From the IMG/VR virus record IMGVR_UViG_3300042563_000821, positions 1 through 49,081 of that record: DNA of 49,081 nucleotides. One strand, written 5' to 3'. Below, piece by piece: positions 3,122 to 11,854 of this stretch (position 1 is its first letter; every line of letters starts with the position of its first letter). Below the pieces are notes generated by a model, which ran no database searches, was not told the DNA's origin, and saw nothing but the letters and a program-made list of their open reading frames with translations. The translations under genes and the position numbers were made by a program. This DNA comes from a virus.

Positions 3122-3259
3122 GTGTTCTTGAAGATGGTGAATGCGCAGGCTGATGCGCAAGGTGAAATTGCTGTACGGGTTGTCGGAAACGCCGGTCACA
3201 CAGGCTAGTAATCGCACAGCACGCCGGAGATCAGCACCGGCCACCATCTTCAAGAACAC
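3122..3259. repeat. 138-nt element closed by an 18-bp perfect inverted repeat; candidate C4/CI-like antisense RNA
   Basis: GTGTTCTTGAAGATGGTG (3122-3139) is the exact reverse complement of 3242-3259, with 102 nt between. The interior holds further pairs: TGCGCA twice (3142-3159) and GCCGG/CCGGC arms. The leftward strand translated in one frame gives the peptide VSDNPYSNFTLRISLRIHHL, which I associate with the C4-type antisense RNA/Icd-like/Ash region of P1- and P4-like phages, where the conserved element is the RNA. That resemblance is from memory and unverified. If right, the functional strand would be minus and it would act as an immunity-type antisense RNA. The inverted repeat itself is certain. 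Confidence 0.5.
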
Positions 3260-7416: not shown

Positions 7417-7562
7417 ACGAAGCACGAGAAAAGTTTGAGGCCATATTGGTCGCAAAAGGCAAGAGCAAGCCCGACTGGGACGGCCAGAAGTACGACAACA
7501 TCAACATCCAGACCTACTGGCGCTGGTTTCTTTTGGGATGGACTATGAAGGACGGCAAATGA
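7413..7562 (+). CDS. Hypothetical small protein, Trp-rich C-terminus (49 aa)
   Basis: A 49-residue protein between two ATGA overlaps. The sequence runs from a charged helix (MNEAREKFEAILVAKGKSK) into an aromatic end (YDNINIQTYWRWFLLGWTMK), which resembles the AxxxWxxWxxGW helix of many small phage proteins. Function unknown. Confidence 0.7.
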   Translation: MNEAREKFEAILVAKGKSKPDWDGQKYDNINIQTYWRWFLLGWTMKDGK

Positions 7563-8383
7563 ACAAGGTAATGAACATCGGCGCTCTCGTGATGGACGAG
7601 CGCTTGCAATCCAGAACAGAGATCAACGAGGAGACGGTATCGGACTACGCAGATGCTATTGGCACCGGCGCTGAGTTCCCTGCGGTGCTGGTCTATTTCG
7701 ATGGCATCAACTACTACCTCACGGACGGCTACCACCGAGTGCTCGCGCATAAGCGTGCGCAGAAGGTATCCATCCTGTGTGATGTAGTCCACGGCACCAT
7801 GCGCGATGCCATCTTGCACTCCACTGGGGTTAATGCAAAGCACGGCATGCGGCGCACATACGCAGACAAGCGCAAGGCTGTGATGACCTTGCTCGATGAC
7901 TTCGAGTGGAGCGACTGGAGCAATGCAGAGATCGCACGGCGCTGCGGTGTGTCGGCACCTTTTGTAGCCAGCCTGAGAGACAGCGGTGGCGCGACAGAAG
8001 TTAAGTACAAAACCCCGAGCGGCAACGTAGCGACCAAAGCAAAAGCACCCGGTCGTCAGGCAAAAGAAAAAGAGCCGGAGCTCAAGGGCCCCGAGATAAT
8101 TCCAGAGCAGCACGAGCAGGGCGATCAGAACCAAGAGGCCATCGACATGCTGTTGGCTGAGAACGAAGAGCTGAAGGCGCGTGTGGCAGTTGTGGCAATG
8201 GACGGCACACCCGAAGAAAAGCAAGCAGCCACAGACATGATCAACGAGTTGCGTGAAGAGCTGCGCATCACCAAGATCGAGCTGAACGCAGTCAAGCAAA
8301 GCCGTGATCAGTATCAATCAGAAAATAGCCAGTTAAAAAAGCAAGTGATGTCGATGCAGCGTCAACTCAAGAAAGCTGCGTGA
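7559..8383 (+). CDS. ParB-like (ParB/Srx fold) DNA-binding protein with coiled-coil tail
   Basis: The start is set at ATG 7559, in ATGA overlap with the previous gene. Residues 1-75 show the ParB N-terminal fold: VMDERLQSRTEIN, FPAVLVYFDGINYYLTDGYHRVLAHK, where DGYHR matches the G/DGxHR box that binds nucleotide in ParB proteins. About residues 119-140 form a helix-turn-helix (SNAEIARRCGVSAPFVASLR). The last 100 residues are a long charged coiled coil. In phages such proteins are probably DNA-bound accessory factors of replication rather than partition proteins, and no ParA partner is seen. It precedes the helicase by 48 nt. Confidence 0.8.
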   Translation: MNKVMNIGALVMDERLQSRTEINEETVSDYADAIGTGAEFPAVLVYFDGINYYLTDGYHRVLAHKRAQKVSILCDVVHGTMRDAILHSTGVNAKHGMRRTYADKRKAVMTLLDDFEWSDWSNAEIARRCGVSAPFVASLRDSGGATEVKYKTPSGNVATKAKAPGRQAKEKEPELKGPEIIPEQHEQGDQNQEAIDMLLAENEELKARVAVVAMDGTPEEKQAATDMINELREELRITKIELNAVKQSRDQYQSENSQLKKQVMSMQRQLKKAA

Positions 8384-8431
8384 TCATTGCCCAAGCCAGC
8401 GGGCATGTGTGCTGGCAGTTGGAGAAACCAA

Positions 8432-10846
8432 ATGAGTTTGCAATTACGAGGGTATCAGCTTGATACATTGGACGGCTTGAGGCGAGGCTTTGCCGCGGGG
8501 TACAAGGCCCAAATGCTTTATAGCCCGACTGGTGGCGGCAAGACTGAGATGGCAATCGCCTTGCTCGATGCCACCAAGAAGAAGGGCAACCGAGCAGCGA
8601 TGATTTTGGACCGCATCATCTTGTGCGACCAGACAAGCCAGCGCCTTGAGAAGTACGACATCGACCACGGTGTCTTGCAGTCAGGTCACTGGCGGTACAG
8701 GCCATACGAGAACATCCAAGTGTGCAGCGCTCAGACGCTGGAGAAGCGCGGCTCTTTTCCCGGCCTTACGCTGATGATCGTTGATGAGGCGCACGCCATG
8801 CGCAGACAGACCATCGAGTTCATAAAGAACAATCCAGACATCAAGGTCATTGGTCTGAGTGCATCACCCTTCACAAAAGGGCTGGGCAACGTGTATGAGA
8901 GTGTTGTCAGCACGGTCACGACCAAAGAGCTGGTGGACCAGAAGGTGCTCTGCCCTCTGCGTGTGTTCGTCGCCAAAGAGATCGACATGACTGGTGCCAA
9001 GAAGGTTGCCGGCGAGTGGAGTCAGGCCGAGTCAACCAAGCGCGGCATGCAGATCACTGGTGACATCGTGTCCGAGTGGATCAAAAAGACGCACGAGATA
9101 TTTGGTCGCCCTCGCAAGACGATCATCTTCTGTTCTGGCGTGGAGCACGGCGCCGACCTGTCCAAGAAGTTTGCAGAGCAAGGCTACAACTTCATCAGCA
9201 TTTCCTACAAGGATGAGGACGAGTTCAAGCGCGAGGTTATTGAGGACTTCAGCAAGCCAGACACGGAGATTCATGGCCTGATCGCCACGGACATCCTGAC
9301 CAAGGGGTTTGATGTGCCTGATGTGATGATCGGCGTGAGCGCTCGCCCGTTCAGCAAGTCACTGTCCTCTCACGTCCAGCAGATGGGCCGCGTGATGCGT
9401 GGCTATCCCGACAAGGAGTTTGCGGTGTGGCTGTGCTTGGCAAAAGGAAGCCTTGTTTTGACAGACTCTGGTCTTGTTCCGATTGACAAAGTAAAGATGA
9501 CCCATAAAATATGGGATGGAACTAACTTTGTAACTCACGGTGGGGCAATTTGCAATGGAATCCAAGAAGTCATCACGTACCAAGGTCTTACGGCGACCGC
9601 AGGACACCTTGTCCACACTGCCGAAGGTTGGCGCACCTTTGGGGAGTGTGCCAGCCAACAAATCAGAATCACACAGACCGGATTTGGTGGGCAAGCGATA
9701 CGGCTCGGTGATGATTTACGACCCACAAGTTTTTTGGTTGGGCGCACGGCAAAGAAGATTCATTCACGTCTTGTGCGAGTGCGTGACTTGTGGGTACAGA
9801 AATTTAATCAGCCTTCAAAATCTACAAACGGGAAAGACGAAGGGTTGCAGGGCTTGCAATCAACCAGATGTGTCGTACCCGATGTGGCTTTACAACAGAG
9901 TTCAGGGAATGCGTGCTCGATGCTGCTCTCCGGCGTGCGATCAGTACCCGGCGTACGGCGGTCGCGGAGTGGAGTTCAGGTTCTCTGGCGTCAAGCAGGG
10001 TACGCTTTGGATTATGGAAAATCTTGGGCTTCCAAAGTTTTCGTCTACCTCGGATCGCTCGCGCATTCAGTTGGACAGAATAGACCCGAATGGGCATTAC
10101 GAGCCGGGCAATCTTCGTTGGCTTTCTGTGGAATTGAACCAGCAAAACAAAAGGGGGAACCAGTCTGTCGCTCGGATGCACAAGTTCAGGATGGATCACC
10201 CGGAAATTCGATACTCAGACAGCACGTTGAAGCGTTTCTTTTGGGCTGGCATGACGGCGGAAGAGATTGTGGAAAGGTACAGCAAACCCTCGGTAAAGCC
10301 GAAAGGGAAGTATGGGACATACTCGACGCCGGACCCCACAATCGCTTCACTTGTGAGGGACTCCTAGTCCACAACTGTCATTCCGGCAACTACCTGCGGT
10401 TCCGAGAGGACTGGGAGGAGATTTACAACAACGGCGTGCATGAGCTGGACGACGGCAAAGAGAAGGCCAAGAAAGAAAAGACCGAGAAGGAAAAGGAAGC
10501 TGCCAAGTGCCCCAAGTGTGGACACCTATGGGCTGGCGGGTCGGACACTTGCATTCACTGCGGATACACCCGCGAGAAGCGCAGCATGGTGGAGTCAGTG
10601 CCGGGAGAAATGGAGGAGCTGCGAGCAGCAGCCACTCGGGAAAGCAAGCAAGACTGGTACAGCATGTGCCAGTACATGGTCAAGTACCACGGATGGAGCA
10701 CAGGCAGAGCAGCCCACACCTACAAGGACAAGTTTGGCGTCTGGCCCAAGGGTCTGGCGGAAACGCCGAAAGCCCCGAGCATAGAGTTTGATAAGGCGGT
10801 GAAGGCCGCTCTGATTCGTTACCTCAAAGGAAAGGGAAAGAGATGA
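8432..10846 (+). CDS. Superfamily 2 DEAD/DEAH-type helicase interrupted by an intein
   Basis: The start is set at ATG 8432 with GGAGA upstream. The precursor has 804 residues; removing the 314-residue intein leaves about 490. Motif I is SPTGGGKTEMA (from about residue 31), motif II VDEAH (117-121), motif III SASPF, motif VI QQMGRVMRG (from 316). The intein splits the protein 10 residues past motif VI, so splicing is needed to join EFAVWL to CHSGNYLRF. The C-terminus has a charged linker, a zinc ribbon (CPKCGHLWAGGSDTCIHCG) and a basic tail. It is an ATP-driven DNA translocase, probably for replication together with the TOPRIM protein encoded downstream. The stop overlaps the next start (ATGA). 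Confidence 0.9.
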   Translation: MSLQLRGYQLDTLDGLRRGFAAGYKAQMLYSPTGGGKTEMAIALLDATKKKGNRAAMILDRIILCDQTSQRLEKYDIDHGVLQSGHWRYRPYENIQVCSAQTLEKRGSFPGLTLMIVDEAHAMRRQTIEFIKNNPDIKVIGLSASPFTKGLGNVYESVVSTVTTKELVDQKVLCPLRVFVAKEIDMTGAKKVAGEWSQAESTKRGMQITGDIVSEWIKKTHEIFGRPRKTIIFCSGVEHGADLSKKFAEQGYNFISISYKDEDEFKREVIEDFSKPDTEIHGLIATDILTKGFDVPDVMIGVSARPFSKSLSSHVQQMGRVMRGYPDKEFAVWLCLAKGSLVLTDSGLVPIDKVKMTHKIWDGTNFVTHGGAICNGIQEVITYQGLTATAGHLVHTAEGWRTFGECASQQIRITQTGFGGQAIRLGDDLRPTSFLVGRTAKKIHSRLVRVRDLWVQKFNQPSKSTNGKDEGLQGLQSTRCVVPDVALQQSSGNACSMLLSGVRSVPGVRRSRSGVQVLWRQAGYALDYGKSWASKVFVYLGSLAHSVGQNRPEWALRAGQSSLAFCGIEPAKQKGEPVCRSDAQVQDGSPGNSILRQHVEAFLLGWHDGGRDCGKVQQTLGKAEREVWDILDAGPHNRFTCEGLLVHNCHSGNYLRFREDWEEIYNNGVHELDDGKEKAKKEKTEKEKEAAKCPKCGHLWAGGSDTCIHCGYTREKRSMVESVPGEMEELRAAATRESKQDWYSMCQYMVKYHGWSTGRAAHTYKDKFGVWPKGLAETPKAPSIEFDKAVKAALIRYLKGKGKR
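9434..10375 (+). mobile_element. Intein in the helicase (314 codons)
   Basis: Cys1 is the TGC at 9434 (CLAKGSLVLTDSGLVPI, block A). Block B is GLTATAGHLVHT, followed by EGWRTFGECA. The C-terminal side has REVWDILDAGPHNRFT (block F) and ends LLVHN followed by Cys at 10376 (block G). All residues needed for splicing are present: Cys1, block-B His, terminal Asn, Cys +1. The 9716-10296 part of this frame is open but has no recognisable fold; the endonuclease of the element is instead encoded in another frame over the same DNA. Confidence 0.9.
9555..10367 (+). CDS. HNH homing endonuclease nested out of frame inside the intein
   Basis: A frame shifted by +1 relative to the helicase is open from before 9540 to TAG 10367. 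From about 9681 it reads as a full phage HNH enzyme: DLVGKRYGSVMIYD, zinc-type CECVTCGYRN...TKGCRAC, YNRVQGMRARCC, YPAYGGRGVEF, and the core LDRIDPNGHYEPGNLRWLSVELNQQNKR, then a C-terminal GMTAEEIVERYS helix. The start is uncertain: ATG 9555 or GTG 9540, neither with a strong ribosome-binding site. It overlaps the N-terminal splicing block for about 160 nt and the whole C-terminal splicing domain, stopping 8 nt before the intein end. Thus both proteins are coded by the same bases. Confidence 0.8.
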   Translation: MESKKSSRTKVLRRPQDTLSTLPKVGAPLGSVPANKSESHRPDLVGKRYGSVMIYDPQVFWLGARQRRFIHVLCECVTCGYRNLISLQNLQTGKTKGCRACNQPDVSYPMWLYNRVQGMRARCCSPACDQYPAYGGRGVEFRFSGVKQGTLWIMENLGLPKFSSTSDRSRIQLDRIDPNGHYEPGNLRWLSVELNQQNKRGNQSVARMHKFRMDHPEIRYSDSTLKRFFWAGMTAEEIVERYSKPSVKPKGKYGTYSTPDPTIASLVRDS

Positions 10847-11040
10847 GCTACGGCTGTTGGAATCGCACCTCCTTCAAGGAGTTCCTCAAGGTCCAGTCTG
10901 GATGGCTGGGCGGTAAGCGAGTGGACACCACCGTCGATTTCAGGATGGCGCGTGACTGTCAGTACACCAAGACAGAGCTGGGCCGCAAGGATGAGCGCTG
11001 CGTTGGCTGCAAGTGGAGGATGCCAGATGCACCTGCTTGA
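10843..11040 (+). CDS. Small Cys-containing phage protein (65 aa)
   Basis: The ATG overlaps the helicase stop (ATGA). The 65 residues include ARDCQYTKTELGRKDERCVGCKWR, three Cys in a basic region that may bind zinc or DNA, after a basic N-terminus (SFKEFLKVQSGWLGGKR). Similar small proteins sit between helicase and primase genes in related phages, in my recollection; function unknown. Confidence 0.75.
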   Translation: MSYGCWNRTSFKEFLKVQSGWLGGKRVDTTVDFRMARDCQYTKTELGRKDERCVGCKWRMPDAPA

Positions 11041-11854
11041 CTTCTGCCGAATCCACGGCGTGATCGTAGACCGTGAGCCACCCATCGGTGTGTGGAAGCG
11101 CTACCCCACGCAGGATAAGCCAACGCACCGCAACGGAGCTGTGAAGTACATGGGCACGCATGCATTCATCCAGAACCACGCCACCATGACAGAGATCGAG
11201 GTTTGGCATGCCGAGGGTGATTCAGCGATGGACCCCAACAAGGCACGCAAGGCTGTCGAGGCTGCTGCGCGTGACATTCGCGAGAAGCAGCAAGAGGCCG
11301 CTCGCAAGGCCGCATCAATCCTGAACCAGTGCCAGATTGGCTTTCACCCTTATCTCGAGCGCAAAGGCTTCAAGGAAGAGCAGGGCAACGTGTGGAAGAC
11401 CGATGACGGGCTGCTGCTTGTCATCCCCATGCGAGTGGGCCACCACCTTGTCGGATGTCAGATCATCAGGGAGGACGGCGAGAAGAAGTTCTTGTTCGGT
11501 CAGCGCACATCTGGCGCTTACTTCTGCTTCGACAACAAGGGGCCGAACATCTTGTGCGAGGGCTACGCCACGGCGCTGTCGATACGCGCAGCCATGAAGG
11601 CATTGAAGCGACGCTACACCCTGTACACCTGCTTCAGCGCAGGCAACATGAAGAAGGTGGCAGCCACCCTGCCGAACGGTTTTGTCGTAGCGGACAACGA
11701 CCTCTCGCGCACGGGGCAGAACACTGCGGAGGCCATCGGCTGGCCGTATTTCATGAGCGAAGCGGTCGGCGACTTCAACGACCTGCATCAATCAACCAGT
11801 CTATTCAAGTGCTCACAGGCACTCGACAAAATGTTTCGCAAGGAGAGGGCATGA
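11027..11854 (+). CDS. TOPRIM-domain primase-like protein
   Basis: The start is set at ATG 11027, with GGAGG 6 nt upstream and a 14-nt overlap with the previous gene. The 275 residues have a novel N-terminal part (MHLLDFCRIHGVIVDREPP...), an Ala/Arg helical linker, and a TOPRIM domain. The metal-binding Glu lies in NILCEGYATA (about residue 178) and the Asp pair in VVADNDLS (223 and 225). This is the catalytic layout of phage and plasmid primases, which make RNA primers at the fork. No N-terminal CHC2 zinc finger is seen, so template recognition may come from the small Cys protein before it. Lies directly after the helicase. Confidence 0.8.
   Translation: MHLLDFCRIHGVIVDREPPIGVWKRYPTQDKPTHRNGAVKYMGTHAFIQNHATMTEIEVWHAEGDSAMDPNKARKAVEAAARDIREKQQEAARKAASILNQCQIGFHPYLERKGFKEEQGNVWKTDDGLLLVIPMRVGHHLVGCQIIREDGEKKFLFGQRTSGAYFCFDNKGPNILCEGYATALSIRAAMKALKRRYTLYTCFSAGNMKKVAATLPNGFVVADNDLSRTGQNTAEAIGWPYFMSEAVGDFNDLHQSTSLFKCSQALDKMFRKERA

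Follow-up and report, generated by a model that had tools for sequence, protein, structure and literature searches.

The window analysed here is the whole 49,081-nucleotide stretch of viral DNA that makes up IMG/VR record IMGVR_UViG_3300042563_000821. It carries an open reading frame for a superfamily 2 helicase, whose neighbours at 7538-8383 and 10952-11854 are a ParB-like protein and a DNA primase, pointing to a phage replication module. The helicase frame is split by an intein, and much of the intein DNA also encodes, one base out of frame, an HNH-family endonuclease. The features lie as follows, in window coordinates.

8387-10846, + strand: superfamily 2 helicase ORF, the host gene, split by the intein; start codon uncertain (ORF call; Pfam ResIII and Helicase_C; phrog_16 DNA helicase, 1.6e-68)
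9434-10375, + strand: intein of 314 codons, its frame continuous with the helicase; C1 at 9434, N314 ending at 10375 and C+1 at 10376 (conserved residues)
9434-9688, + strand: N-terminal part of the predicted splicing (Hint) domain, residues 1-85 (AlphaFold; Foldseek to solved inteins; intein-frame dN/dS)
9539-9545, + strand: Shine-Dalgarno-like GGTGGGG, 9 nt before the ATG at 9555 (AAGGAG in the same place in the relative L003)
9555-10367, + strand: nested HNH-family endonuclease ORF in the +1 frame, 270 aa, ATG at 9555 and TAG at 10365-10367 (phrog_374; AlphaFold)
9584-9619, + strand: intein block B, GLTATAGHLVHT (T55 to H58; conserved alignment columns)
9684-10163, + strand: HNH core, with zinc-finger residues C76, C79, C98 and C101 and the motif DR-ID-N-G-Y-E-P-G-N, in ORF numbering (profile match; invariant columns; HNH-frame dN/dS)
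9689-10276, + strand: readthrough linker of the intein frame, residues 86-281, stop-free and predicted to be disordered, its DNA being the HNH gene in +1 (pLDDT mostly <50; stop counts)
10286-10375, + strand: C-terminal part of the predicted splicing domain, residues 285-314, with blocks F and G (AlphaFold; alignment; intein-frame dN/dS)

The intein begins with CLAKGSLVLTDSG and ends with LLVHN followed by Cys, and its translation contains no stop between the two. The nucleophile C1, T55 and H58 of block B, the terminal H313-N314 and C+1 are all present and are invariant or nearly so in an alignment of 44 members, in which C1, T55, H58, D295, G300 and N314 never vary. AlphaFold modelled residues 1-85 and 285-314 confidently (pLDDT ~95) and residues 86-281 as mostly disordered. 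Foldseek searches with this model returned inteins and Hint-fold relatives as the leading PDB matches, at modest E-values (best 1.0e-3). Profile searches of the intein frame against the PDB gave weak matches only, including a DnaE intein at E 0.06, and phmmer against the PDB gave no match. Since neither the intein frame nor the HNH frame matched an intein or HNH model of Pfam or NCBIfam, or gave anything else informative there, we based identification on PHROGs, the alignment and structure. On its sequence and modelled fold, the insert is classed as an intein and not as an intein with an in-frame endonuclease.

The +1 product matches phrog_374 (HNH endonuclease, 7.3e-24) and phrog_3377 (7e-18), and it carries two CxxC pairs together with a DRIDPNGHYEPGNLRW...N motif. 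Its stop codon is separated from the intein end by 8 nt (10368-10375). AlphaFold predicts the product well (mean pLDDT 86) except for the first ~40 residues, which in the model are a disordered shadow of block B. An alignment of 48 HNH sequences contains no invariant His, and DR-I-D-x-N-G-x-Y-E-x-G-N is conserved instead; as Foldseek of the HNH model against the PDB also returned no significant match, catalysis by this product is uncertain. The initial annotation had placed an intein frame open over 314 codons at 9434-10375, its splicing blocks in that single frame, and a full HNH-family gene in +1 at 9555-10367 stopping 8 nt before the intein end. Translation reproduced all of these coordinates exactly, and the reading of the splicing blocks is supported.

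We then considered how often such a double frame would stay open. Synonymous-codon reshuffling of the window's HNH core gave a mean of 7.2 expected intein-frame stops, against 0 observed (P<0.001). Across 38 HNH clusters (HNH below 60% identity), the same shuffling predicted 217 intein-frame stops in the HNH core and none was observed. Members of this set were required to have both splicing ends in the same frame, a choice biased toward openness, but only L004 and L146 were set aside as frame-broken. The third frame of these clusters contained 302 stops against 306 expected. Outside inteins, an open alternative frame in either direction was found in 0 of 123 HNH cores not adjoining an intein half, the two alternative frames averaging ~7 and ~16 stops.

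Substitution patterns indicate which frame is constrained where. We compared the window with L003, a relative 22% diverged in DNA that has the same arrangement. Substitutions in the N-terminal splicing part concentrate at third positions of intein codons (7, 5 and 29 by codon position), with an intein-frame dN/dS of 0.11. In the HNH core they fall on HNH third positions (27, 14 and 80), with dN/dS of 0.06 in the HNH frame and ~4 in the intein frame. Over blocks F to G the values are 0.10 for the intein frame and 0.33 for the HNH frame. The codon-position pattern thus changes frame exactly at the domain boundaries. Nine further pairs switch likewise from the N-terminal part to the HNH core; segments that are short or nearly identical are uninformative. 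Given the two values in the HNH core, the intein-frame linker appears to be constrained mainly to stay free of stops, and the disorder that AlphaFold predicts for it agrees with this.

To survey the family, we queried viral contigs and prokaryote genomes with nothing but the N-terminal splicing domain; because this query lacks the nuclease part, in-frame endonucleases were equally findable. We recovered 161 inteins whose N and C motifs share a single open frame. Three of them are copies of the element in the window and others are nearly identical to one another; statistics were based on non-redundant sets. Of the 161, 132 have the HNH in +1, 6 in +2 and none in frame, and 23 lack it, so that 138 hold a nested HNH. 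The sole in-frame matches were L004 and L146, both with a broken frame. L004 is a short metagenome contig in which a single indel in the HNH region (~3207-3234) breaks both frames, through error or real decay. In tblastn searches, matches to the intein frame coincided with matches to the HNH frame, within DNA polymerases encoded by Streptococcus, Gardnerella and EBPR phages. The intein frame is open over an HNH in +1 in Javan113, Javan255, Gardnerella AB1, APSE-1, Shewanella SFCi1 and Caulobacter GB2A, and over an HNH in +2 in EBPR siphovirus 2, Pseudomonas MR14, Salmonella f18SE and Vibrio 97.13. Javan422 has lost most of its HNH and PhiSdyV1524 has a stop within it, the intein frames of both being still open. 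In L133, L054, L149 and L150, two inteins occupy neighbouring positions of a single polymerase locus, a mini-intein beside one that holds a nested HNH. Judged from these frames, phage and prophage inteins form a large and hardly described family in which an out-of-frame nuclease is the rule.

Uninterrupted homologues were found for both a helicase and a polymerase insertion, each intein being a precise in-frame insertion at a conserved site. A helicase with 61% identity (L166, MW202426.1) has no intein at the window's site and reads WL|DHSGNYLRF, as compared to WL|intein|CHSGNYLRF in the window. Cys+1 stands in place of Asp, suggesting that the Cys probably arrived with the element. The same L166 helicase ORF contains an ordinary in-frame LAGLIDADG intein in its 5' part, at the Walker A region. 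In Jerseyviruses, the polA intein is an exact 897-nt insertion that is absent from phage ST4, whose flanks are 92.8% and 98.3% identical; the intein matches 165 phage records and the polymerase gene 401. In Salmonella phage SS3e (NC_006940.2, 26034-26932) the intein match spans 899 rather than 897 bases, which fits an indel or a sequencing error, and the record annotates an HNH endonuclease and two DNA polymerase pieces. These comparisons show presence/absence polymorphism of the insert; cleavage of the empty site and homing by the HNH product are putative.

We consider it highly probable that the insert belongs to a nested, dual-frame type of mobile intein, in which splicing Hint ends enclose a separately translated homing HNH gene one base out of frame. 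Both frames are open, purifying selection acts on complementary segments, empty sites exist and the layout is conserved across the family; the Hint fold is a predicted one. The two ends of the intein frame would form the splicing domain, with a readthrough linker of ~196 residues, predicted to be unstructured, between them, and splicing would take out the whole insert and join the helicase. The HNH-family gene would be translated alone, its ribosome-binding site and start codon being internal and embedded in splicing-domain codons, and its product would cut helicase copies that lack the intein, with repair copying the element in.

Three other accounts of the locus were weighed against this one. 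Sequencing or assembly errors could create the same picture if two compensating indels had shifted an ordinary in-frame endonuclease, and single indels do occur, in L004 and L146. However, an identical element is present in a second IMG/VR contig of 69,920 bases (L002/L005), and the layout is the same in L003, in isolated, cultured reference phages and in the 138 nested inteins of the survey. These relatives refute a frame error, and we rejected it as having next to no probability. It seems very improbable, too, that an HNH gene simply fell into a mini-intein and left one of the frames non-functional, by chance or in decay. The broken or deleted HNH of PhiSdyV1524 and Javan422 agrees with such decay and indicates that the HNH is dispensable for the intein, but purifying selection on both the HNH frame (0.06) and the splicing blocks (0.1) argues against it, as do the 217 expected stops of which none is seen and the lack of any open alternative frame in the 123 cores outside inteins. 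HNH genes of this sort are common in phage introns, which counts toward a group I intron spliced at the RNA level. Against this, Rfam gave no match up to E = 1 over 8300-11000, the host frame is open, and intein blocks A, B, F and G are conserved with codon-level selection; a group I intron was accordingly rejected and is scarcely credible here.

With the nested, dual-frame intein as the preferred reading, several suggestions of the initial annotation can be revisited. Its view that openness by chance was unlikely, and that selection for readthrough acts on the same bases as selection for the nuclease, is borne out by the stop counts in the window and across clusters and by the complementary dN/dS values, computed for both frames between the window and L003. 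The two compensating frame errors it had raised were looked for through relatives, which speak against them. Its guess that the arrangement may be a class holds, since every nested HNH surveyed is in +1 or +2; translation of homologues in all frames gave the reverse of a nuclease always in frame.

How the nuclease would be translated can be approached from the family as well. An in-frame start codon lies between the upstream stop and the HNH core in all 103 distinct loci. Members of the main +1 group share an ATG that lies ~37 codons upstream of the core and overlaps the codon for Tyr in the intein motif KEVIxY(D/E)G, whose KEV codons often read AAGGAGGT, a Shine-Dalgarno sequence ~9 nt before that ATG. 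An ATG with a strong Shine-Dalgarno was found in 74 of 96 cases, compared to 21.9 expected from resampled intein codons, and the HNH frame in the N-terminal extension is depleted of stops (10 vs 104). Because of the ubiquitous starts, this enrichment and the depletion of stops, we favour internal initiation over frameshifting, as far as sequence can indicate. The window's own ribosome-binding site is imperfect. A codon-choice test at the Shine-Dalgarno and start codons showed enrichment, but control codons were enriched too, making this test weak. Most mini-inteins keep the ribosome-binding signal, as expected if their HNH was lost recently, and so they are not a clean negative control. Dual coding could also operate with the HNH made by programmed frameshifting, as a fusion of the N-terminal intein part and the HNH. 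The HNH frame is open some way upstream of the core, which leaves room for a shift within the N-terminal splicing part, and the ATG and Shine-Dalgarno pattern passed our test in only 2 of the 6 +2 loci. Given the start before the core in every locus and the strong Shine-Dalgarno at a conserved ATG in most +1 members, we regard frameshifting as unlikely, though it deserves consideration.

A tree built from HNH cores unites the +2 members in a single clade (100/96) and divides the +1 members. Nine of the latter, among them APSE-1, Caulobacter and Shewanella, cluster with free-standing HNH genes, and the window belongs to a second group that comprises all other +1 members (98/95). These groupings suggest, in a tree without a fixed root, more than one origin of nesting. 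Six matches to the HNH query, all in polymerase genes, have stops in the intein frame (L268, L269, L270, L271, L276 and L293). The five examined (all but L269, which resembles L268) are split inteins, with an N-half ORF, an HNH overlapping it in +1 and a C-half ORF. In all 4 split loci inspected for it, the start of the C-half follows a purine-rich stretch that looks like a ribosome-binding site. By their sequences, these relatives have the layout of fractured genes and suggest a path from nested to split inteins. We are evenly divided on a broader proposal, namely that dual coding is a general intein architecture that arose repeatedly, its +1 and +2 lineages being separate and spread over phages and prophages of many phyla, and that it is a missing step to split inteins, a stop gained in the intein frame over the nuclease yielding a fractured gene with a free-standing nuclease.

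These results indicate that the same bases can be under selection for a splicing domain in one frame and for a homing endonuclease in another, the nuclease then being a free protein with its own start, and that nesting is the norm in a widespread phage intein family rather than a curiosity. The family provides a large natural set of same-strand overlapping genes for the study of dual coding, and a testable route from contiguous inteins to split ones, which are used in biotechnology. The annotation of polymerases and helicases in many phages, APSE-1 and the Salmonella Jerseyviruses among them, is corrected as well.

Canonical inteins with an in-frame homing endonuclease, for example LAGLIDADG inteins like PI-SceI, resemble the window family in their Hint domain, conserved insertion site and placement of the endonuclease between blocks B and F. 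Their endonuclease, however, is in the same frame and the same polypeptide, whereas here it is in another frame. In fractured genes, reportedly described by Dassa and co-workers in 2009, a free-standing endonuclease gene lies between the halves of a split intein's splicing domain. The contrast drawn with them in the initial annotation stands for the window, whose intein is contiguous in one open frame running through the nuclease gene, and does not extend to the family, in which L268, L270, L271, L276 and L293 share the split layout with an HNH between the halves. APSE-1 P45/P46 and the Jerseyvirus 'intein-containing DNA polymerase precursor' have the same family and architecture as the window. 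The APSE-1 deposit has P46 as a gene inside that of the polymerase P45, and P46 corresponds to the core of the nested HNH; in Jerseyviruses, the nested frame matches the phrog_93 endonuclease, and some records name an intein-containing polymerase. Annotation of these phages has been piecemeal. We found no paper on inteins with an out-of-frame nuclease as a class, in a search thin on preprints and subscription journals that does not prove absence. The closest published case is the ShiLan insertion, an out-of-frame HNH in a phage methylase without a splicing domain (PMC11855218), and another methylase of this sort has been mentioned (PMC12613952). The authors of the former study reported no intein splicing motifs, intein-like structure or detectable ribosome-binding site, and expected the insertion to stay in the methylase (PMC11855218). 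Common to ShiLan and the window are an HNH out of frame, an open host frame and a scattered distribution suggesting homing; unlike ShiLan, the window family has a conserved splicing domain under selection, and most of its +1 members have a Shine-Dalgarno sequence.
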